Positions 22,992 to 38,730 of a stretch of DNA of 64,000 nucleotides are shown in pieces. Origin of the DNA: Gracilinema caldarium (lineage in GTDB: Bacteria; Spirochaetota; Spirochaetia; Treponematales; Breznakiellaceae); the NCBI RefSeq assembly GCF_029265695.1, contig NZ_JAJUHW010000011.1:1-64000 (forward strand), read 5' to 3'. Both the position numbers and the translations under genes were made by a program. Each line of letters opens with the position of its first letter. The first letter of the stretch is position 1. The notes below the pieces were generated by a model. That model did not search any database, was not told where the DNA came from, and saw nothing but the letters and a program-made list of their open reading frames with translations.

Positions 22992-25115
22992 TTACAGCTT
23001 AAAGAGCAATTCTTCGTAACCAGGTAAAGGCCATGCTTTTTTGTCTACCAGTTTTTCCAGGCTGTCTACCTTGGACCGGAGTACTGCCATCTGGGCCACA
23101 ACCTTTTCCCGGTATGCCTTGGCCTGTATAAAGGCATCTTCGGTTTCCTGGGCTTCCGCAAGCACCTTTTCGAGCTTGTCGGTCTCTTCGCTGACTTCGT
23201 TAAGCAGTTCTGCAATCCGCTTTGCCCGCTTTTCCTGGGGGGCGCTGATCGCACCAATAGCTGCTAAGGATGCCGCATCCCGTGCGAGTCCTCCCGCATA
23301 GGCGCTCACTGCCGGGAATATGGAACGGCGGGCCATAGAAATCATAACACCCGCTTCGATATTGATCTGTTTGGAGTACCGTTCGAGGTAAATGTGGTAG
23401 CGGCTTTCGAGTTCTTCCTTGGTAAAGACCTGATGAGTCTCAAAAAGACTAATGATTTCAGGCTGCACCAACACAGGAAGCACATCGACCGTAGCCCGCA
23501 CATTGGGCAGGCCTCGCCGTTCCGCTTCTTTTACCCATTCCTCGGAGTAACCGTTTCCGTTAAATACAACCCGCCGGTGCTTGGCGTAGGATTCCTTGAC
23601 CAAGGCTTCGATAGCCGCATTTTTGTCGGAAGCCTTCTCAAGTTTATCGGCAAACTCGGACAGGACTTGGGCAACCGCTGTATTCAAATAGGTATTGGGC
23701 GTCGCGATGGATTGGGAAGAACCAACCATACGGAACTCAAACTTGTTCCCCGTAAACGCAAAAGGACTGGTTCTATTCCGGTCCGAAACATCCTTAGGCA
23801 GGGTCGGAAGGGATGTAACGCCGAGCTTGATCCGCTCCATACCGGTGTTTTTGTTTATCGGTTTGCCATCGGCAATACTTTCGAATATTTCGGTAAGGAG
23901 ACTTCCAAAGAAGACGGAAATAATAGCAGGCGGAGCCTCGTTCGCGCCGAGCCGGTGGTCGTTACCTGCGGTGGCAGCAGAAGATCGAAGCAGGAGAGCA
24001 TAACGATCTACCGCTTCCACCACTGCGGCGGTAAAGAGGAGGAACCGGGCATTGGACTCCGGATTTTCGCCGGGATCAAGGAGGTTCACCCCATCATCGG
24101 TCGACATGGACCAGTTATTGTGCTTACCCGAACCGTTTACCCCCGCAAAGGGCTTTTCGTGAAGCAGGGCTTCCATGCCATGCCGGCGGGCAACCTTTTT
24201 AATGGTTTCCATGACGAGCTGGTTTGCATCCACAGCTACGTTGGTGGTGCTGAAAATCGGCGCAATTTCGAACTGATTCGGCGCAACCTCGTTGTGCTGA
24301 GTCTTGGCCGCCACACCTACTTTCCACAGTTCCGTATTGAGTTCCCGCATGAATTTTGCTACCCGCTCTTTGATAGCCCCGAAATAGTGGTCTTCCAGTT
24401 CCTGACCCTTGGCAGGCATGGAACCAAATACGGTGCGGCCGGTTAACATAAGGTCTGGACGCTCATCAAAATATGCTTTATCGACTAAGAAGTACTCTTG
24501 TTCGGGACCGACAGTAGTGGTGACCCGTTTTGCGGTGTTGTTTCCCAGGGCACGCAGAACCCGCAGTGCCTGCTTGTTAAGAGCGTCCATAGAACGGAGC
24601 AAAGGCACCTTTTTATCCAGCGCATGGCCGTAGTAGCTAAAGAACGCAGTGGGAATGCACAGGGTGGTACCTGTGGGATCCTGTTTAAGGAAGGCGGGGC
24701 TTGTTACATCCCAGGCAGTATAGCCCCGGGCTTCAAAGGTAGCCCGAAGTCCCCCTGAAGGAAAGCTCGAAGCATCAGGCTCACCCTTTATAAGTTCCTT
24801 GCCGGAGAATTCCATCAGCACCTTGCCATCGGTGGTGGGGGCGATGAAGGAGTCATGTTTTTCCGCAGTAAGCCCAGTCAGGGGATGGAACCAGTGGGTA
24901 TAATGGGTAGCGCCCTTTTCCAAAGCCCAGTCCCGCATGGATGCAGCCACGACCTCAGCAACCTCGAGGCTCAGTTCCTTCTCGCCGGCCTGGACTGCAA
25001 GAATTTCCTTGTAAATATTCTTCGGCAGCCGCTCCCGCATGACCGAGTTAGAAAAACAATTGGTTCCGTACAGGCTGGGTACGGAAGTTTCTGCAAAGTT
25101 AATCGTTTCGCTCAT
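22992..25115 (-). CDS. glnN: Type III glutamine synthetase
   Basis: Length about 707 aa; [47 protein letters not shown] before ATG at 25115. Confidence 0.95.
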
Positions 25116-25153
25116 AATCACTCCTTAGGTAACGAAATCAACACTTATGTATT

Positions 25154-25170
25154 AGCAATTTTCATGCCAA
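25154..25170 (-). promoter_or_regulatory. Sigma-54 promoter upstream of glnN
   Basis: Minus strand TTGGCATGAAAATTGCT; GG and GC separated by 10 nt. Confidence 0.85.
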
Positions 25171-25235: not shown

Positions 25236-25279
25236 CTACAATCATGTAGTTTTTTTACCTATTTCCTACGTTTTTGTAG
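25236..25279. promoter_or_regulatory. Tandem CTACA-N4-TGTAG palindromes upstream of glnN (putative UAS pair)
   Basis: CTACAATCATGTAG (25236-25249) and CTACGTTTTTGTAG (25266-25279), centres 30 bp apart. Confidence 0.65.
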
Positions 25280-25303
25280 GCCCCCTGCAACAGGGACTTG
25301 CTT

Positions 25304-25645
25304 TTACCCGATCGCCTCTGAGCCGGTTTCGCCGGTTCTGATACGGATACATTCCTCCAAAGGCAGAATAAAGATTTTGCCGTCTCCAATTTCGCCGGTC
25401 CGGGCGCCACGAATGATGGCATCTATCGTTGGTTTTACGAAACTGTCATTAACCGCAATCTCTATTCTCACCTTTTTAAGCAGGTTCACCTCAATATCAA
25501 CACCTCGATAGGACTCGTGAAACCCCTTCTGCTGCCCGCAACCCATGGCATTGGTTACCGAAATCTTAAAGATTTCTGACCGGTACAATTCCTGCTTAAC
25601 CTCATTTAATTTATGGGGCTGTATGTATGCTATTATCAGTTTCAT
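25304..25645 (-). CDS. glnK: PII family nitrogen regulator
   Basis: [59 protein letters not shown]; downstream of amtB. Confidence 0.9.
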
Positions 25646-25658
25646 AATGTCCCTCCGC

Positions 25659-26978
25659 CTACATGTTGCTGAAGATCTGGAAGCCCGAGTAGGCCTCCGC
25701 CTTGTGTTCGGTAATATCAAGACCCATCAGCTCTTCCTTCTCTGATACCCGGAGCCCTACTACAGCCTTGATAACCACAAAGAGTATGAGGCTTGCCAGA
25801 CCAGCCCACAGGCCGACTGTCAGGGCCCCCAAGGCCTGTACGGCCAGCTGGTACCAGCCGCCGCCATGCAGTACGCCCACTGCTACGCCTTCGACATTGC
25901 CCCAAATCCCGACCGCCAGGGTACCAAAAACACCATTCACCATATGCACCGATACTGCGCCCACTGGATCGTCGATTTTTAATACCTTATCGATGAATTC
26001 AACTGACAGAACAACAATAAGCCCCGCAATTAAACCGATCACAACCGCAGCACCCGGGGAAACAACCGCGCAGGGAGCGGTGATAGCTACAAGACCAGCC
26101 AAGACACCGTTCATGGTCATGGAAGCATCAGGTTTTTTAAACCAGATCCATGATACAATCATGGCACTCACCGCGCCGGCAGCCCCCGCAAGGGTGGTAG
26201 TTACCGCAACCCGGGCTATATCGGTACTGACACCGGAAAGAGTAGATCCGGGGTTAAAGCCATACCAGCCAAACCACAGAATAAAGACCCCCAAAGCGGC
26301 AAGCGGAATGTTGTGGCCGGGAAACGCTTTTACGACAACCTTTCCTTCAGCCCTGACATACTTTCCTGTCCTTGGACCGATAACGATGGCTCCCATAAGG
26401 GCTGCCCAACCGCCAACTGAGTGGACAACAGTAGAGCCCGCAAAATCGTGGAACCCGAGCTTACTGAGCCATCCGCCGCCCCATATCCAGTGGCCTGAAA
26501 TGGGATATATGAGGGCTGAAATAAACACCGTATAAATAAGGTATGACTTAAACTGGGTTCGTTCAGCCATGGCACCGGATACTATGGTCGCCGATGTGGC
26601 TGCAAAAACAACCTGGAAAAACCAATCCCGGTAAAACTTGGGATCCCCCATGGGCCCCTTGAAAAAGTCTGAAAAACCGATAAGACCTCCGAACTGGTCA
26701 GCTCCGTACATGAGCCCCCAGCCAATCATCCAGAAAACCAGGGATCCAAAACAAAAATCCATGAGGTTTTTCATGATGATGTTCGTCGCATTTTTAGCCC
26801 TGGTAAGCCCGGTTTCTACCAGTGCGAATCCAGCCTGCATAAAGAACACCAGCGAGCCGGTCAATACGAGCCACATCATGTCCATGGCAGCAGTGAGAGA
26901 ATCGATGCTTTCCTCTGCGAAACCTGCAACAGTAACCAAGAAGAAAAGCATCGCCAGAAACAGCATCTGCTTTTTCAC
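25659..26978 (-). CDS. amtB: Ammonium transporter (GTG start)
   Basis: AmtB motifs: [48 protein letters not shown]. Confidence 0.95.
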
Positions 26979-27017
26979 CTATTGTTCCTCCTAAAAACGT
27001 GGTATGACAATGAAAAA

Positions 27018-27033
27018 GCAGATTTCGTGCCAA
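27018..27033 (-). promoter_or_regulatory. Sigma-54 promoter upstream of amtB
   Basis: Minus strand TTGGCACGAAATCTGC; GG/GC spaced by 10 nt, one mismatch to TTGC. Confidence 0.75.
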
Positions 27034-27208
27034 GCCCTATATATTTTATTACATTTTTGTATCCAAATTAATTATAAAATTTCTGAAATAAAATATTTCT
27101 TTTATACAAATTGATTTAATAAAATATTCCAAAAATGATGAGTTCTATGATGGTCATGAAAAGAACCTTATATTATGAATACATGCGGTCATGTCATATA
27201 AAATATTC

Positions 27209-27252
27209 CTACATTTTTGTAGTTATTACAATTGATACCTACAAATTTGTAG
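27209..27252. promoter_or_regulatory. Tandem CTACA-N4-TGTAG palindromes upstream of amtB (putative UAS pair)
   Basis: CTACATTTTTGTAG (27209-27222) and CTACAAATTTGTAG (27239-27252), centres 30 bp apart. Confidence 0.7.
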
Positions 27253-28819
27253 TTCTATAAAGTTTCCAGGGGATAGCATAATGATGAACCCGTAATCCCA
27301 TTTGACGTTCTGTAATACCGAGCCGGCGCGCAGCGGCAGCCATGTTGCCACCGGTTATTTTAAGAGCCTCAATTATGAGTTCCTTTTCCAGCCGGGAGAG
27401 GGCTGCTTCCAACGTGGTAGTGGGTTCAGTTTGGGTAGACTGGGCAGACTGAAGACTCGGCGGCAAATGGTAAGAATGTATAACGCTATCGGTGGAGAGT
27501 ATTACCGCCCGTTCAATACAGTTTTCCAGTTCCCGAACATTTCCCGGCCAATGATAACTCGATAAAAGGTCTAACGCAGGACTGGAAATCCGCTTGATAA
27601 GCTTTCCGTTCTTTTTACCGTACTTTTCAGCAAAAAAATCTGCCAGCAGGATGATATCGCTTTTTCGTTCCCGTAAGGGCGGAATGTGTATAGGGAACAC
27701 ATTAAGGCGATAGTATAAATCTTCTCGGAAACGTCCGCTTTTAATATCATCTTCCAGATTTCTATTAGTCGCAGCAATAAGCCGGACATCTATTTTAATA
27801 GGTTGATTGCCTCCAACCCGTTCAATTTCCCGCTCCTGGAGTACCCGAAGTAATTTCACTTGCACCTGGGGGCTCAAATCACCGATTTCATCGAGAAAAA
27901 TGGTTCCTCCATGGGCAAGCTCAAAGCGGCCCTTTCGTTGTGTCAGAGCCCCTGTAAAAGCGCCCTTTTCGTGCCCAAAGAGCTCGCTTTCGATAACCGA
28001 TTCCGGCAAGGCTGCACAGTTCACCTTTATGAAAGCCTGCCGAGCCCGTTTCGATTGCCGGTGAATCTCTGAAGCAACGAGCTCTTTTCCGGTACCGCTT
28101 TCTCCGGTTATAAGAACCGTTGCATCGCTGGGAGCAACTTGGGCAACTAGTTCCAGCACCGAACGAATACCCTTGCTCGTCCCGATTATCCCGGACTGAT
28201 CCAGCTGTACAGAAAGGTTTGCCGCCTCAATACTTGATTCTTCTGCCCCTCTCAATGCAAGGATCCGATATTGTTCCTCCTGAATACGCTCCCGCAGCTT
28301 CGCCGAATCTGCAATAATGGAAGCCACTGCTTCCAATATCCTTTGATCCGAATGCAGAATTGCATCCTTCTGCTGTTCGGGCAAACGTCTTTCAGCGCTC
28401 AAGGTACCTAATACTTGATTTCCTGTTTTTATGGGCACGCAATAATACGCAAGCCCAATAAGATCCTCCTTTTTTCTGCTTCCAGCCCGGTTAAGAAAGC
28501 GGTTTTCCTTTGAAAGATCAGGAACCACAATCGGAATACCGCTTTCAAAGACTTTACCTACAAGACCTTCTCCCATCCGGTACTTGCCCCGTTCCTTTTC
28601 TTCAGCAGTAAGGGCCGGGGCTTCTTCTATTTTAAGCAGCCCGGAAGCCCGATCCAGCAGAGTAACCATACCCCTGACAAGGGAGGTCCTCATTTCCAGG
28701 AGGGATAAAAGTGGTCCCAGGGAACTCCGCAGTTCTACATGCTTATCCAAGGTTCTTGTGATATCCAACAATAAAAGCAATTCATCCCGTTCAGAAAGCA
28801 GACCATCTATGATATCCAT
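27239..28819 (-). CDS. nifA: NifA-like sigma-54-dependent activator (GAF, AAA+, Fis-type HTH)
   Basis: [27 protein letters not shown]-term [24 protein letters not shown]. Confidence 0.85.
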
Positions 28820-28831
28820 GAAACTAATTTA

Positions 28832-28845
28832 TTACAAAAATGTAG
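28832..28845. promoter_or_regulatory. Single CTACA-N4-TGTAG-like site at the nifA-like 5' end
   Basis: TTACAAAAATGTAG, 12 nt upstream of the nifA-like start. Confidence 0.5.
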
Positions 28846-28979: not shown

Positions 28980-30668
28980 ATGAGCGCGTTAATAGCTATC
29001 ATAGCCCTGGCAATTTACTTTGTGTTCTACTTTGTATATGGTAGAACCATCCAGTCCAAGCTCCTGAAAAGCCATGAAGCTCCGGACGCTCCTTCAAAAC
29101 GGCTCCAAGATGGTGTCGACTATGTACCAACCAACAAATTTGTTTTGTTCGGCCACCATTTTGCATCCATTGCTGGTGCTGGCCCGATTACCGGCCCTGC
29201 AATGGCTGTCGCCTGGGGATGGTTACCGGGACTGCTCTGGATTTGGTTTGGCAATATTTTTATCGGTGCAATTCATGACTACCTGGCCCTTGCCGCTTCT
29301 GTCCGCTATGACGGCCGCTCAGTACAGTTTGTAGCCCAGGACATGGTTGGTAAAAAAGCCGGATCATCCTTCGGATGGTTCGTCCTGTTCCTTTGTATCT
29401 TGGTAGTAGCAGCTTTCGGTGACATTGTAGCTGGTCAGTTTGCCGCTGACGGCCGGGTCTTCTCCGCCTTCTTCTTCTTCTGTGTAGCCGCAATCATCGC
29501 TGGCTTTATTATGTATAAGTCTCCCCTCGGCATGGGTTGGGGATCCCTTATTGGGGTTATTCTTATCATTGTAGCCTTCTGGGCAGGAGATTTACTTCCT
29601 GTAAAGGCAAGCAAGGATGTCTGGTTCATTGTTATCTTTGTATATATTGTTATTGCTTCAGCATTGCCAGTTAACTTCCTCTTACAGCCCCGTGACTACT
29701 TAAACAGCTTCCTACTTTACTTTGGATTACTGATAGGTGGAATTGCTGCTCTCGTTTCTTTCGGAGCCTTTGATTCAATTCCTCTATTTACCAGTTTCTC
29801 TGCCAAGGTGATCGGAGGACAGCCTTCACCGTTCTGGCCCACAGTACCCCTCGTCATCGCCTGCGGTGCCCTATCGGGCTTCCATGCCTTGGTTGCCTCT
29901 GGAACTAGCTCAAAACAATTAGCTACCGAAAAGGACGCCCTTTTTGTTGGCTACGGCGCTATGCTCACCGAAGGTTTCCTATCCACCATCGTTGTTATTT
30001 CAATCGCAAGCTTTGGAGATATCGCGATGGGTGATACTGCAGCAATTATGAAGACTCCCGCACTCAATCGTTTTGTACTCTCCTATGGATCCATGGTAAG
30101 TACTACGATCCCCTTCTTTACGAAGGAGTTTATGAACCTCTTTGCGGCTGTTTGGGTTAGCTCATTTGCCCTTACCACCTTGGATACTACAAACCGGCTT
30201 GGCCGTTATCTTGTTCAGGAAATGGCCTTGCCCCTCAAAGACAAAGCTTCCGGATTATACAACATTCTGGAAAACAAATGGGTTGCATCCATTATAATTG
30301 CATTTTTAGGTATTTTCCTTGCTCGATCCGGTGGTTACACCACGTTGTGGCCCGCATTCTCAGGTGCAAACCAGCTTATTGCATCTATCGTCATGCTGAC
30401 CGCAGCAATCTGGGTAAAGAACAAGCTTAATCCGAAATATACCAATGTGGTTCTTATCCCGGCCATATTCCTCTGGGTCACCGTAACGGTAGCCCTGATC
30501 TGGTATGAAGTCATTATTGTGCCCACCTTCTTTGTAAAGATGGAAGATACGATGAAAGTCATTACGGGCAGTGTCGTTGGTGTTATTAACATCATCATGC
30601 TGATCCTCAATTTCGTGATGATTGTAAGTTTCACAAAGAACTTCTCAGGGAAAAAGGCAAACGCCTAA
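28980..30668 (+). CDS. cstA: Carbon starvation protein CstA family transporter
   Basis: VPTNKFVLFGHHFASIAGAGPITGPAMA; polytopic membrane protein; SD aggagg. Confidence 0.9.
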   Translation: MSALIAIIALAIYFVFYFVYGRTIQSKLLKSHEAPDAPSKRLQDGVDYVPTNKFVLFGHHFASIAGAGPITGPAMAVAWGWLPGLLWIWFGNIFIGAIHDYLALAASVRYDGRSVQFVAQDMVGKKAGSSFGWFVLFLCILVVAAFGDIVAGQFAADGRVFSAFFFFCVAAIIAGFIMYKSPLGMGWGSLIGVILIIVAFWAGDLLPVKASKDVWFIVIFVYIVIASALPVNFLLQPRDYLNSFLLYFGLLIGGIAALVSFGAFDSIPLFTSFSAKVIGGQPSPFWPTVPLVIACGALSGFHALVASGTSSKQLATEKDALFVGYGAMLTEGFLSTIVVISIASFGDIAMGDTAAIMKTPALNRFVLSYGSMVSTTIPFFTKEFMNLFAAVWVSSFALTTLDTTNRLGRYLVQEMALPLKDKASGLYNILENKWVASIIIAFLGIFLARSGGYTTLWPAFSGANQLIASIVMLTAAIWVKNKLNPKYTNVVLIPAIFLWVTVTVALIWYEVIIVPTFFVKMEDTMKVITGSVVGVINIIMLILNFVMIVSFTKNFSGKKANA

Positions 30669-30682
30669 TGTAACCCTTTTTT

Positions 30683-30714
30683 GTTCTGTCCTATGGGATC
30701 CCATAGGACAGAAC
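30683..30714. repeat. 32-bp perfect palindrome between cstA and ArsA cassette
   Basis: GTTCTGTCCTATGGGATCCCATAGGACAGAAC. Confidence 0.85.
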
Positions 30715-30769
30715 TATTGAAATGACTAAAAGGCTCCGCACAAGAGCGGAGTCATGTTTAAAGGATAGT

Positions 30770-31054
30770 ATGACTAAGGAAGAAATATTACAAAAACTTA
30801 AAAATGTATGGTATATCGTCCGGCAGGTTCACCGGGAAAAAGCAACAGAGATGCTTGAATTCGAAGTTAAAGAGTTACAAAACCTCTTTTCCCTTATGGT
30901 ATTGGGAAGCCTTGTAGGACTGCCTTCTCCCCCTCCCGCAATTGCCTTTGAGCTCATTCCCCTTATGGAAGATGAAATCCGTACCATGACAAGTAGAGCT
31001 GACTTTGCACAGGACCCCTTGGGTGCCCTGGTTGGAATGCTCAATATTGATTAA
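30770..31054 (+). CDS. Hypothetical protein of ArsA cassette (start MTKEEILQ proposed)
   Basis: Intact ORF; SD aaagga before ATG at 30770. Confidence 0.6.
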   Translation: MTKEEILQKLKNVWYIVRQVHREKATEMLEFEVKELQNLFSLMVLGSLVGLPSPPPAIAFELIPLMEDEIRTMTSRADFAQDPLGALVGMLNID

Positions 31055-31069
31055 CACAATGGAAACTAT

Positions 31070-31987
31070 ATGAAGAAACTCGCGTTTTTCTTGGGAAAAG
31101 GCGGTGTCGGCAAGACAACCCTTTCTTCAGCCACGGCCTACCGGCTCTCTGCAAGCGGTTTTAAGGTCCTTATATGCTCATTAGATCCTGCCCATAATTT
31201 AGGGGACGTCTTTCACACCAAGCTGGCTAATAACCTCAGACCTATACGGGAAAATTTAGACGGGATAGAAATAGACCTTGCCGAATGGGTACAGAAATAT
31301 TTGGAAGAAAGTCGAGGTGAGATTCAAAATGCTTACCGGTACAATGTAGTCATCGACCTCAATAAGTATCTGGACATTATGAAATATTCACCAGGGACCG
31401 AAGAATATGCAGTCTTGTGGGCAATTGAACACATCTTTAAAACCTATAAAGACAGCTACGACATCATTATATTTGATACTCCTCCCACAGCTCTTACACT
31501 TCGATTTCTTGCCATGCCTGCCATATCTGGCCTTTGGATTCAAGAACTCTCCAATTTGCGGAAAACAATCCTGGAAAAACGGCGGGTACTATTAAAATTA
31601 AATCCTGAAGCTAACGTGTTGGGCGGACAGGTAAAAAAGGAAGAGGATCCAATCTACCAAAAACTTGGGGCCATACACAAACGGCTTGAAGCGTTGCAAG
31701 AGCTTTTTGCCAAGGAAAGCTACATTTCGGTAGTACTAAATCCCGATGAATTAAGTTTTTCTGAATCTCTGCGCATCCGAGATGAGCTTGGTAAGCTGGA
31801 TGTTCCCATATCGAGCCTATGCTATAACAAATTTCTTATTGATGACAGCCGCGGTGAACGGCTGCGGACAACCTTTAAAAGCATTCCCATTTTTACCTTT
31901 AACCGGCTTGAAGAGGGCATTTTAGTGCTGGACGACCTGGCAAAACTTGAAGTCTCACCGCTGGTACACCATATGAGGAGTAATTGA
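31070..31987 (+). CDS. ArsA/GET3-family ATPase
   Basis: GKGGVGKTTLSS, SLDPAHNLGDVF, IFDTPPTALTLRFLAMP. Confidence 0.85.
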   Translation: MKKLAFFLGKGGVGKTTLSSATAYRLSASGFKVLICSLDPAHNLGDVFHTKLANNLRPIRENLDGIEIDLAEWVQKYLEESRGEIQNAYRYNVVIDLNKYLDIMKYSPGTEEYAVLWAIEHIFKTYKDSYDIIIFDTPPTALTLRFLAMPAISGLWIQELSNLRKTILEKRRVLLKLNPEANVLGGQVKKEEDPIYQKLGAIHKRLEALQELFAKESYISVVLNPDELSFSESLRIRDELGKLDVPISSLCYNKFLIDDSRGERLRTTFKSIPIFTFNRLEEGILVLDDLAKLEVSPLVHHMRSN

Positions 31988-33134: not shown

Positions 33135-34121
33135 ATGGCCTTAGAAATCAACATAGACAAATCAAGCGATAGCCCTGTATACCGGCAGATTATCGAACAG
33201 ATTACCAGAAAATTGCGGGCCGGTGTATTAAAACCAGGGGATAAGCTCCCCACAGAACGCGAGCTGGCGGAAAGCCTTGGCATTGCCCGGGGCACCGTAA
33301 ACCGGGCCTACGAAGAATTGACCCGGTCCCAGATTCTGGAATCTATTCCCGGCAGGGGAAGTTTCATTTCCGCCCAGCAGGACGTGGCCGAGACAAGCCG
33401 CAAGGAAAAAGCGGTGAGCCTCATAGCAGAACTTATCGACACATTGCGTAATCTTCGTTTTTCCTACCGCGAAATTCGCACCCTCATAGAGCTCGGCATT
33501 TTGGAAAAGGAGCGAATGTTCGAGGAACTTTCCATCGCGGTGGTAGATTGTAATCCGGAAGCATTGGCGGTATTTCGAAAACAGCTTAACTTTTTAACCA
33601 CCATGCCGCTTACCCTTTTTTTACTCGATGACCTTGCATCAACTGCTGAGGTGGAAAAGAAGCTCTCTCCCTTTGATCTGGTATTAACCTCCGCCCGTCA
33701 TTATACGGAAGTACTCGGCATGGCGCCGGGAATAAAAGAAAAGCTTATCCAGGTAGCCCTTTCTCCGTCCCAGGATACAATCATAGCCCTGGCAACGATA
33801 AAGCCGGGCCGTAAATTAGGCATCATCTGCGAAAGCCGGCAGTTCCGTGACATCATCCTTAATAAATTGCGGGATCTTATGATCGACGACGGCGTGGAAG
33901 TTCTCCGCTATGCCGAACTGGATCGGCTGCCCCTCTTTCTCGCCGATAAGGAGGTCATTATTGTGCCCCCTTCATGGAAGCAGCCCGAGGGAAAAGTAGC
34001 CCAGGCGTCTTTGCAGGATTTTACCTCCCGTGGCGGAAAGCTCATCGTCTTCGACTACCAGGTTGAACGGGGTTCTGTCATTTATGTAGAAGAGCGAGTC
34101 CGGGATCTCTTGGCCCAGTAG
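33135..34121 (+). CDS. GntR family transcriptional regulator
   Basis: PVYRQIIEQITRKLRAGVLKPGDKLPTERELAESLGIARGTVNRAYEEL. Confidence 0.9.
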   Translation: MALEINIDKSSDSPVYRQIIEQITRKLRAGVLKPGDKLPTERELAESLGIARGTVNRAYEELTRSQILESIPGRGSFISAQQDVAETSRKEKAVSLIAELIDTLRNLRFSYREIRTLIELGILEKERMFEELSIAVVDCNPEALAVFRKQLNFLTTMPLTLFLLDDLASTAEVEKKLSPFDLVLTSARHYTEVLGMAPGIKEKLIQVALSPSQDTIIALATIKPGRKLGIICESRQFRDIILNKLRDLMIDDGVEVLRYAELDRLPLFLADKEVIIVPPSWKQPEGKVAQASLQDFTSRGGKLIVFDYQVERGSVIYVEERVRDLLAQ

Positions 34122-34587: not shown

Positions 34588-36015
34588 GTGGCAAAGCTGG
34601 CCCTTTCTATCGATATAGGTTCCACCTGGACCAAGGGCATGCTGGTTGATCTCTCAGACCATACCTGTGTGTTGCGGGAAGCAAGCCCGACGACGGTAGA
34701 CAACCTCGTTATGGGATTTAACAAAGTATACCATACACTCTTACATGGAGTTCCAATTGGCTACACTAGGGGAGATCGTCCCGAGGTCTTTGTATCTTCC
34801 AGCGCGAAGGGGGGCCTTACCATCGCTGCCATTGGTCTTGTGCCGGACCTCACGCTTAAGGCCGCAAAAATGGCCGCCGCATCCGCAGGCGGCAAGGTTA
34901 TCGCCAGCTTTTCATATAAATTAACCAGGTCGGATATAGAAAAGCTCGAAACATTGCGGAGCGACATTATACTCCTGAGCGGCGGGACCGACGGAGGAGA
35001 TGAATCCTATGTGCTCCACAATGCGAAAATGCTTGCATCATCTGGACTGAGCTCTGCCATACTGTATGCGGGGAACCAGACCGTACGGGAAGAAGTCCTC
35101 GCCATCTTACAAGACGCTGGTAAAGATGCCCAGGGATCGGCCAATATTTTGCCCGATTTAGAATCGGTACAAGTCGATGAGGCACGAAAAGCGATAGGGG
35201 ATATCTTTCTAAGGCGGATTATCGAAGGCCGGGGTCTCGCTTCGGTGCGGGAAATAGCCAGCGCGGAGCCCCGGCCTACACCAGCGGCAGTATACGACCT
35301 GGTGGCACTGTTGGACGAAACAGATGAAGGACTCCTTGTGCTTGATATGGGCGGAGCTACCACCGATGTGTATAGCCTCAGTGATCCCTACAGTAAAGAA
35401 TCGGACCGGGTCTACCGGGGTATTCCAGAAACGAGGCTGAAACGGACCGTAGAAGGCGACTTAGGGCTCAGGGTGAGCGCCCGTTTTGTCGCTGATGCGG
35501 GCTCCACATATATCAAGCGGATCCTGAATGAACAAGAACAGCGCAGCCTTGCAAAGTGGCTCGAAAGGATAGGCGCCAATACGGGGATTTTGCCCCTTAC
35601 AGAAGAAGAACTAAAACTCGACAATCTGCTTGCGGTTATTTGCGTCGCCGAGTCTATCGGGAGACACGGCGGAACCCTTTCGCCGACCTTTACCCCCGAG
35701 GGGCTCCTCTGGGTCCAGCAGGGTAAGGACCTTTCCAGGATACGACGCATCATTGGCAGCGGCGGCCGTCTTGCCCGTGAACTGTCCATCAATATAATCC
35801 ATTCCGCCCTGGAATCCTATTTCACTTCAGAAAATGAAACTAAAGGAAAAAGCTGGCCCCAAACAAAGCGGCTTTTACCCCGCTTCGATTCGATCGAGTA
35901 CTTCCGGGATAGTGAATATATTATTCCCCTGGCGGCAAATCTTGCCCTGACATACCCTCAAGCCGCCAGGGACCTGGTTATACAGAGTTTACAAAGGGAG
36001 AATATCCATGATTGA
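34588..36015 (+). CDS. glmL: Glutamate mutase accessory ATPase GlmL/MutL
   Basis: SIDIGSTWTKGMLV, LLSGGTDGGDE, LDMGGATTDVYS. Confidence 0.9.
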   Translation: MAKLALSIDIGSTWTKGMLVDLSDHTCVLREASPTTVDNLVMGFNKVYHTLLHGVPIGYTRGDRPEVFVSSSAKGGLTIAAIGLVPDLTLKAAKMAAASAGGKVIASFSYKLTRSDIEKLETLRSDIILLSGGTDGGDESYVLHNAKMLASSGLSSAILYAGNQTVREEVLAILQDAGKDAQGSANILPDLESVQVDEARKAIGDIFLRRIIEGRGLASVREIASAEPRPTPAAVYDLVALLDETDEGLLVLDMGGATTDVYSLSDPYSKESDRVYRGIPETRLKRTVEGDLGLRVSARFVADAGSTYIKRILNEQEQRSLAKWLERIGANTGILPLTEEELKLDNLLAVICVAESIGRHGGTLSPTFTPEGLLWVQQGKDLSRIRRIIGSGGRLARELSINIIHSALESYFTSENETKGKSWPQTKRLLPRFDSIEYFRDSEYIIPLAANLALTYPQAARDLVIQSLQRENIHD

Positions 36016-37456
36016 TCGTAAGATGAGCAAGGAATCGTTCGAAACCCAACGGACTGAGGTGCTCAAGTCCTGGCCGACAGGAGCGGACGTCGATTTTGAC
36101 GCTGCGGTCGCCTTGCAGCGGGCTATACCGGAGGAAAAAAACTTTGCCGCGGCTATGAAAAAGGCCGATGCGGAGGGGCGAACCCTTTTACAGCCCCGGG
36201 CAGGGGTTGCCCTGGTGGATGAACATATACGGCTCCTTAAATACCTGGAGACCGAGGGGGAAGCGGATCTGCTCCCCACTACGATAGACGCCTATACCCG
36301 GCAGAACCGGTATACCGAGGCTGCCAAGGGTATCGAAAAATCCCAGGCGGCAGGCACAAGCCTCCTGAACGGCTTTCCTGCGGTAAATCACGGGGTAGCC
36401 GAGTGCCGCAGGGTAACCGAGGCGGTTTCCAAACCGGTCCAGGTCAGGCACGGAACCCCCGATGCACGGCTTTTGGCGGAGATAACCCTCGCGGCAGGCT
36501 TTACCGCCTTTGAAGGGGGCGGCATCAGCTACAATATTCCCTATGCTAAAAATGTCCCCCTGCGTTCATCAATCCAATATTGGAAATATGTGGACCGCCT
36601 TGTGGGCCTTTACGAAGAAGCAGGGGTGCGTATAAACCGGGAACCCTTTGGACCTCTGACAGGCACTCTGGTCCCCCCCTGCGTTTCCCACGCGGTAGCA
36701 ATCCTGGAGGGGCTTCTGGCCCTGGAACAGGGGGTGGTTTCCCTCACTTTAGGCTACGGACAGTGCGGAAACCTGATACAGGATGTGGCGGCAATCATCA
36801 GCCTTAGAAACCTGGCCCGCACCTACTTTAGCGAAGCCGGCTTTGAACATGTGGAGCTTACCACGGTGTTCCACCAGTGGATGGGCGGCTTCCCGGAAGA
36901 CGAAGCAAAGGCCTTTGGCGTCATTTCCTGGGGTTCCGTGGCGGGCCGGCTTGCGGGGGCCACCAAAATCATTGTGAAGTCCCCCCATGAGGCCATGGGT
37001 ATCCCCACCAAGGAGGCTAATGCCCAGGGACTCAGGACGAGCAGGCAGATCGTAAACATGCTAAGCGACCAGGGCATGCTGGATTCCCAGGCGGTCCAGA
37101 GGGAGGTGGCCCTTATCGAGCGGGAAACCCGGGCAATTTTGGAGGGAGCCTTTGCCCTCAGTTCGGGCCGGGACCCCGAAGAAGCGGCGGTCCGGGCCTT
37201 TGAGGCGGGCATTATCGACGTACCCTTTGCGCCATCGAACCAAAACCAGGGGAAGATTCTTCCCATGCGGGATAACGAAGGCTATGTGCGGATTTTCAAA
37301 GCCGGATCCCTACCCCTGCCCCAGGACGTGCTGGACTTCCACCGGGAACGACTGGAAGACCGGGCTAAGGCAGAGGGGCGGCTAGTAAGCCTCAGGATGG
37401 TAACAGACGATATTTATGCGATCGGCAAGGGCCGGTTAGTAGGGAGGCCATTATGA
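36008..37456 (+). CDS. glmE: Methylaspartate (glutamate) mutase, E subunit
   Basis: RHGTPDARLLAEITLAAGFTAFEGGGISYNIPYAKNVPL; follows glmS/glmL. Confidence 0.93.
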   Translation: MIDRKMSKESFETQRTEVLKSWPTGADVDFDAAVALQRAIPEEKNFAAAMKKADAEGRTLLQPRAGVALVDEHIRLLKYLETEGEADLLPTTIDAYTRQNRYTEAAKGIEKSQAAGTSLLNGFPAVNHGVAECRRVTEAVSKPVQVRHGTPDARLLAEITLAAGFTAFEGGGISYNIPYAKNVPLRSSIQYWKYVDRLVGLYEEAGVRINREPFGPLTGTLVPPCVSHAVAILEGLLALEQGVVSLTLGYGQCGNLIQDVAAIISLRNLARTYFSEAGFEHVELTTVFHQWMGGFPEDEAKAFGVISWGSVAGRLAGATKIIVKSPHEAMGIPTKEANAQGLRTSRQIVNMLSDQGMLDSQAVQREVALIERETRAILEGAFALSSGRDPEEAAVRAFEAGIIDVPFAPSNQNQGKILPMRDNEGYVRIFKAGSLPLPQDVLDFHRERLEDRAKAEGRLVSLRMVTDDIYAIGKGRLVGRPL

Positions 37457-38730
37457 AAATTAAGAGAGTATCCTTTCGGGAGGGGGCCAGCGCCTTCTTT
37501 TTTGACGACCAGCGGGCTATAAAGGCCGGGGCGGGCCACGACGGTTTTGTCTACACCGGAAAGCCCATAACTCCGGGCTTTGTCCGTATCCGGCAGCCAG
37601 GCAAAGTCATCTGCGTGACCTTGGAACTGGAAAACGGCCGCTTTGCCTATGGAGACTGTGCAGCGGTCCAGTATTCGGGGGCCGGTGGCCGGGACCCGTT
37701 ATTAGATCCGGCGCGGTATATTCCTTTTCTGGAAAAGCATGTAAAGCCCGTTTTGGAAGGTATGGAATTGGATTCGTTCCGACGCTGCGCTGGAGTAATT
37801 GACAATCTAAAGGTTCCCGATCCCCTGTCAGAACACCCGGAAGAGCCTAAAATACTCCATACAGCCCTCCGCTATGGCCTTACTCAGGCCCTGCTCTATG
37901 CTCGAGCAGAAGCGGCAGGTATGATCCCCGCAGAAATTGTGGCTGAGGAATGGAACCTGCCTATTATCGCAATACCGGTACCTGTATTCGGCCAGACCGG
38001 CGACGACCGCTATACTAATGCGGACAAAATGATCCTCAAGGGTGTAGATGCCCTGCCCCACGGGCTCATCAACAATGTGGATGAAAAACTGGGCCGCCAG
38101 GGCGAAAAGCTTAAGGATTATCTGCGCTGGCTCAGCCGCCGTATCACAGAACTCAGGATGAACCCATCCTATAAGCCATCCCTCCATGTGGATGTGTACG
38201 GAACGATCGGGCAAATCTTTAACAATGATCCAGTCCGGGTAGCTTCCTACCTCGCATCCCTCGAAAAAGATGCAAGCCCCTTTGATCTCTATATTGAAGG
38301 CCCCATAGACTTAGAACACCGGGAACGGCAGATGGAAGGTCTGGGGGCAATAAAGCGGGAGCTTTCAAAGCTAGGTTCCCCGGTTAAAATAGTGGCCGAT
38401 GAATGGTGCAACACCCTGCAGGATATCAAAGACTTTGCCGATGCGGATAGCTGCCATATGATCCAAATTAAAACCCCCGATCTGGGAGGGCTTCAGGATA
38501 TTGTAGATGCGGTTCTGTACTGCAAAAAGGCTGGCGTAGAAGCCTACCAGGGCGGTACCTGCAACGAAACGGATCTTTCTGCCCGGGCCTGCGTACATCT
38601 AGCCATGGCAAGCCGGCCAGAACGGATGCTGGCCAAACCCGGCATGGGTTTTGATGAAGGATACTGTATCGTGACCAATGAAATGGCCCGTATTTGTTCA
38701 ACCTTTGAGTTAAGGAGCCATCATGCCTAA
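37453..38730 (+). CDS. mal: Methylaspartate ammonia-lyase
   Basis: VDVYGTIG, IEGPID, VADEWCNTLQDIKDFADADSCHMIQIKTPDLGG; enolase-superfamily layout. Confidence 0.93.
   Translation: MKIKRVSFREGASAFFFDDQRAIKAGAGHDGFVYTGKPITPGFVRIRQPGKVICVTLELENGRFAYGDCAAVQYSGAGGRDPLLDPARYIPFLEKHVKPVLEGMELDSFRRCAGVIDNLKVPDPLSEHPEEPKILHTALRYGLTQALLYARAEAAGMIPAEIVAEEWNLPIIAIPVPVFGQTGDDRYTNADKMILKGVDALPHGLINNVDEKLGRQGEKLKDYLRWLSRRITELRMNPSYKPSLHVDVYGTIGQIFNNDPVRVASYLASLEKDASPFDLYIEGPIDLEHRERQMEGLGAIKRELSKLGSPVKIVADEWCNTLQDIKDFADADSCHMIQIKTPDLGGLQDIVDAVLYCKKAGVEAYQGGTCNETDLSARACVHLAMASRPERMLAKPGMGFDEGYCIVTNEMARICSTFELRSHHA

Follow-up and report, generated by a model that had tools for sequence, protein, structure and literature searches.

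The 64-kb stretch of DNA analysed here, referred to as the window, contains an island on the reverse strand in which a regulator gene is followed by amtB, glnB and glnN (Table 1). The palindrome CTACA-N4-TGTAG, with at most one mismatch, is found seven times in the window, against a mean of 0.49 and a maximum of 3 in shuffled sequences. A preliminary description of the island quoted six copies of the motif, and their letters and coordinates are all correct. It also reported two pairs of sites with a spacing of 30 bp, one upstream of glnN and one upstream of amtB. Both spacings hold, and so do the distances to the promoters: the glnN pair lies 66-109 bp upstream of the -24/-12 box at 25154-25170, and the amtB pair 176-219 bp upstream of the box at 27017-27033. 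A further copy lies singly between the amtB pair and the amtB promoter; identical or similar copies in that position were seen only in two other members of the genus and at one additional locus.

Table 1. Genes and predicted regulatory elements of the island, in window coordinates.
Feature	Position	Strand	Basis
glnN, type III glutamine synthetase, predicted target	22992..25121	(-)	Pfam GSIII_N
-24/-12 promoter of glnN, TTGGCATGAAAATTGCT	25154..25170	(-)	predicted
Promoter-proximal operator, glnN pair, CTACAATCATGTAG	25236..25249		predicted, sequence
Promoter-distal operator, glnN pair, CTACGTTTTTGTAG	25266..25279		predicted, sequence
glnB, PII protein, predicted target together with amtB	25304..25645	(-)	Pfam P-II
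amtB, ammonium transporter, predicted target	25659..26978	(-)	TIGR00836, over cut-off
-24/-12 promoter of amtB-glnB, TTGGCACGAAATCTGCT	27017..27033	(-)	predicted
Third, single motif copy between amtB pair and amtB promoter	27049..27062		sequence
Promoter-proximal operator, amtB pair, CTACATTTTTGTAG	27209..27222		predicted, sequence
Promoter-distal operator, amtB pair, CTACAAATTTGTAG; overlaps regulator stop codon	27239..27252		predicted, sequence
Regulator gene, AnfA-type enhancer-binding protein, 526 aa	27239..28819	(-)	domains, profile scores, tree
Sigma-70-like regulator promoter: TTGTAG, 18-bp spacer holding the operator, TAAATT	28855-28826	(-)	59 aligned loci
Single operator at the regulator promoter, CTACATTTTTGTAA on the (-) strand	28832..28845		predicted, sequence

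The regulator comprises a GAF domain, a sigma-54 AAA+ domain with the GAFTGA loop present in the translation, and a Fis-type HTH domain; a domain search found no receiver domain in it. Together with the -24/-12 boxes of its predicted targets and the presence of rpoN in the genome, this architecture identifies it as a sigma-54 enhancer-binding protein. The protein narrowly misses the cut-off of the NifA model of NCBIfam (TIGR01817; 524.4 bits, cut-off 528.85) and scores 348.6 bits with the NtrC model TIGR01818 (cut-off 558.6). In a maximum-likelihood tree that includes AnfA proteins taken from beside anfHDG, a 100/99 branch parts classical NifA from a group containing the regulator, a nifH-linked spirochete paralogue and AnfA, and on the AnfA side of this branch the regulator's nearest sister is not resolved. 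The fetched AnfA proteins are 47-49% identical to the regulator, whose recognition helix agrees with that of AnfA (GLTRRMLGVRMERYGI) and differs from that of a classical NifA (GMTPRQIAYRIQIMDI). Judged by these sequence comparisons, the regulator is a member of the NifA superfamily that groups with AnfA and not with classical NifA. We term it AnfA-like, not AnfA, because no nifH-family nitrogenase gene in the window genome gives a match over the cut-off.

We searched the 3.04-Mb genome of the window by pattern. Pairs of CTACR-N4-YGTAG at 30 bp are found only at the two places reported. Single CTAC-N6-GTAG sites are not commoner than matches to the reversed control (33 against 40), and the single matches outside the island on the six contigs inspected all lie inside open reading frames. 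The signal is the pairing, not the single motif. The pairs stand upstream of sigma-54 promoters; nif genes play no part in the window genome, in which nifH was not found. A weaker third pair, with one core mismatch, is located at C19:39634-39677 upstream of a -24/-12 box and precedes a gene for a methyl-accepting chemotaxis protein (MCP) with a Cache domain, which is followed by a gene for an EAL-domain protein. Two other members of the genus share this pair, which stands before the orthologous gene in the one examined. By its sequence context the MCP-EAL operon (C19:39634-39677 and L346:3403-5901) is probably also part of the regulon, a hint of a link from nitrogen status to chemotaxis and c-di-GMP signalling. 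Pattern scans of this kind have a trap: a recurrent GC-rich look-alike (C8:49944 in the window genome, and in many relatives) fits a loose form of the pair pattern (CTACCGGCC.GT.GAAGAGCG...GACTACAGCGAAGT). It looks like conserved protein-coding sequence and was disregarded.

The pairs are conserved across the spirochete family. A strict pair, defined as TACA-N4-TGTA twice, 30 bp apart and with at most one mismatch, is present in 51 of 200 family genomes, and the reversed control in one. We then assembled 81 islands, 80 of them fetched orthologous islands and the last that of the window, and searched the interval from the regulator stop codon to the start of amtB for all candidate pairs spaced by 13-70 bp. 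The 61 candidate pairs have a sharply defined spacing (47 at 30 bp, 5 at 31, 2 at 29 and 1 at 28), with 55 in the range 28-31 bp; the reversed control pattern gave a single match. The phasing that had been described as strict is therefore near-strict. Counted from the list of candidate pairs, 30-bp pairs precede amtB in at least 37 genomes of 22 genera. In aligned loci both sites are strongly conserved and most of the linker is variable, with the consensus CTACAAAAATGTAG - N16 - CTACATTTTTGTAG. The usual gene order is regulator-amtB-glnB-(glnN). In orthologous upstream regions the conserved pairs precede strong -24/-12 boxes (e.g. TTGGCACGN4TTGCT), most often 110-235 bp downstream of the amtB pair and, where glnN has a pair, mostly 68-175 bp downstream.

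The pairs also accompany the target genes when these are separated from the regulator. Copies of amtB (L342, L344, L356, L358 and L360) and of glnN (L343, L345, L354 and L357) that lie away from the regulator have 30-bp pairs of their own. Conversely, 24 regulator loci hold no amtB in the fetched stretch; 17 of them have no pair, and in six of the remaining seven the contig ends within about 0.6 kb. Relatives contain additional sigma-54 targets whose sites are phased: at 21 bp before a second amt gene (L350), at 41 bp before glnN of another genus (L349) and at 31 bp at a hydrolase/peptide-permease-like locus (L351). The spacings of 21, 30-31 and 41 bp correspond to about two, three and four helical turns. 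Among more distant homologues (L063 and L066), a Spirochaetaceae genome with a regulator only 57% identical has a 30-bp pair before amtB, and a deltaproteobacterial contig has one upstream of a 48%-identical regulator homologue; several other distant loci examined showed no 30-bp pair. Two other arrangements were observed. At L348:981-1052 (G006), three predicted operators follow each other in 30-bp steps upstream of the gene for an amino-acid-type ABC transporter ATPase, with a family 3 solute-binding protein encoded downstream and no -24/-12 box found. At L292 (G001:C53:37-364), near a contig end, a 44-bp pair is present in two copies of opposite orientation, 284 bp apart; this is perhaps an artefact of assembly, or else a genuine inverted repeat.

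The distribution of the pairs bears on the question of which protein binds them. The strict pair is present in 45 of 112 genomes with the regulator and in 6 of 88 genomes without it (Fisher p = 2.9e-8), counts that are inflated because the genomes share ancestry. Within one genus, all four genomes with the regulator carry the pair, and none of the 36 without it does. The remaining 67 regulator-bearing genomes have no strict pair at exactly 30 bp, and some of these absences result from incomplete assembly, weaker sites or another spacing. The true ligand could be a different DNA-binding protein, for example an NtrC-like response regulator, with the AnfA-like gene merely linked to the sites. The window genome does encode several other NtrC-like sigma-54 activators (six matches below the cut-off, one of which is the regulator itself), and six genomes contain a strict pair with no regulator detected, all of them with an estimated completeness of 64-81%. 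We nevertheless consider a different ligand unlikely: pair and regulator occur together even within the single genus, the core of the motif equals the AnfA consensus, an operator is found at the regulator's own promoter in most loci, and no protein passes the NtrC cut-off of TIGR01818 in the 30 genomes searched, the window genome and 29 relatives. It is very improbable that the palindromes act at the RNA level, as hairpins or terminators, or that they are a by-product of conserved coding at the 3' end of the regulator gene. In the window, as in most loci, one member of the amtB pair does overlap the stop codon of that gene. However, in several loci the pairs lie well past the stop codon, and others precede unlinked copies of amtB or glnN; on these grounds coding constraint at the stop codon was rejected. 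In addition, the stems are only 5 bp long, the palindromes are absent from the list of a terminator scan and have no Rfam match, and neither hairpins nor coding would explain why sites ahead of -24/-12 boxes keep a constant distance of 30 bp. The motif pairs are very probably the seat from which the regulator would switch on amtB and glnN, even in species that do not fix nitrogen.

The motif copy at the start of the regulator gene was correctly recognized as real, but it is single and has no adjoining sigma-54 box. Upstream regions of the regulator in orthologous loci likewise have a single site and almost never a -24/-12 box. We aligned 59 loci on this operator. A -10-like hexamer begins directly after it (T in 92%, A in 93% and the final T in 90% of loci), a T-G-G near position -35 is less strongly conserved, and in 49 of the 59 loci an in-frame ATG lies 6-8 nt past the hexamer. 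In the window the ATG at 28819 is located 6 nt past TAAATT, so that the transcript is apparently leaderless. Because the operator abuts the -10 box and takes up the whole -35/-10 spacer, the layout points to autorepression, not co-activation, and the single operator probably serves to repress the regulator gene. The same motif stands at all three genes, which would also fit an arrangement in which every site activates and the regulator-gene site reflects positive autoregulation or merely marks shared activation. This arrangement is improbable in view of the near-absence of -24/-12 boxes upstream of the regulator and of the placement of the operator where a bound protein normally blocks polymerase.

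We are fairly confident that the adjacent AnfA-type protein has its operator in the palindrome; the protein would act as a general activator of nitrogen assimilation through paired sites and repress its own gene through the single one. An AnfA-type activator of amtB-glnB, glnN and the MCP-EAL operon is the most economical reading of the sequence data. The preliminary description had taken the motif to be the upstream activating sequence of a NifA-like activator that coordinates glnN, amtB-PII and the activator gene itself. Conservation in orthologues, the link to sigma-54 promoters and co-occurrence with the regulator agree with a predicted upstream activating sequence, with the protein now grouped with AnfA. 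Coordination of glnN, amtB-PII and the activator gene is likewise supported, with the single site at the activator gene pointing to repression and not to co-activation.

In the enteric NtrC system, paired enhancers serve the sigma-54 promoters of amtB-PII (glnK-amtB) and glutamine synthetase (glnA), and NtrC represses its own gene from a sigma-70 promoter. The layout here is similar, with paired sites at sigma-54 promoters of amtB-PII and glutamine synthetase and presumptive repression of the regulator's own gene. In contrast to NtrC, the regulator lacks a receiver domain, has a GAF domain instead and is associated with a different operator. Classical NifA binds TGT-N10-ACA. It has the same domain order as the regulator and belongs to the same superfamily, but lies across the 100/99 branch and has a different recognition helix and a different operator; moreover, the window genome has no nif genes.

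The published operator of AnfA from Rhodobacter capsulatus is TAC-N6-GTA with dyad symmetry, present in two copies at anfH (PMC7294313). The regulator described here resembles AnfA in the TAC-N6-GTA core, in two copies per promoter upstream of a sigma-54 promoter, and in its GAF-AAA+-HTH architecture. Control of anfHDGK is not seen: AnfA serves the iron-only nitrogenase, whereas the regulon predicted here covers ammonium uptake and glutamine synthesis, and the genome has no nifH. The anfH sites are 57-58 bp apart in three fetched alphaproteobacterial loci, compared with 30 bp here, and for the majority of the remaining anfH genes fetched, no TAC-N6-GTA was found in the upstream region. For VnfA from Azotobacter vinelandii, operators of the form GT(T/A)C-N6-GTAC have been described, usually two with similar spacing, and co-operative binding has been suggested (PMC9542535). 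By this description the operators are alike, with an outer G there and a C here, but VnfA controls the vanadium nitrogenase and metal transport. CTAC-N6-GTAG fits the AnfA/VnfA operator class. The half-site does differ from that of classical NifA, as had been proposed, but the AnfA (TAC-N6-GTA) and VnfA (GTAC-N6-GTAC) operators are precedents for it. The nearest functional precedent, likened by description only, is DVU1949 from Desulfovibrio vulgaris, a one-component sigma-54 activator with a predicted large regulon of nitrogen metabolism and transport that includes its own operon (PMC4641369).

We hypothesize that two regulator dimers would occupy two operators about three helical turns apart, on the same face of the DNA, with the -24/-12 promoter roughly 65-220 bp downstream, perhaps binding co-operatively. 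Nitrogen shortage would be sensed through the GAF domain, possibly with PII, and the bound dimers would spend ATP to open the RNA polymerase-sigma-54 complex at amtB-glnB and glnN, and probably at the MCP-EAL operon elsewhere in the genome. At the regulator gene, binding to the single operator in the spacer of the leaderless sigma-70-like promoter would stop further synthesis. A broader proposal, towards which we lean with some reservation, is that of a nitrogenase-independent AnfA-type master switch in which number and position of the operators set the sign of regulation, a pair activating and a single site repressing, and whose regulon reaches chemotaxis and c-di-GMP genes. Operators and proteins of these classes are already known. 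In the literature searched we found no description of nitrogen regulation in this spirochete family; general nitrogen control by an AnfA-type protein in the absence of nitrogenase, the near-fixed 30-bp pairing and the layout of activating pairs and repressing single sites appear undescribed there. The findings suggest that AnfA-type regulators can operate independently of nitrogenase and may serve more broadly in general nitrogen control. A defined operator, a matching regulator and few targets per genome make this a testable regulon for termite-gut and related treponemes.

A nifH-family match is present in about half of the family genomes. Diazotrophic relatives have a separate AnfA-clade paralogue that is divergent from nifH (L293, L297-L300), and no TGT-N10-ACA was found near the promoter in their regulator-nifH intergenic regions. 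In several genomes these regions contain a CTAC-N6-GTAG-like element followed by TTATTTTTGTAA about 31 bp on, a spacing that was read by eye, as a regular expression for the second element gave no match. Together, the two elements may form the nif enhancer of these spirochetes.

Divergent from the regulator, a row on the forward strand of the window (28980-31987) encodes a CstA-type carbon starvation transporter, a small protein weakly like cory-CC-star and an ArsA/Get3-type ATPase. Consecutive genes for a GlmL family protein, methylaspartate mutase subunit E and methylaspartate ammonia-lyase (34588-38730) constitute an operon of the glutamate mutase pathway, next to which a GntR-type regulator is encoded (33135-34121).
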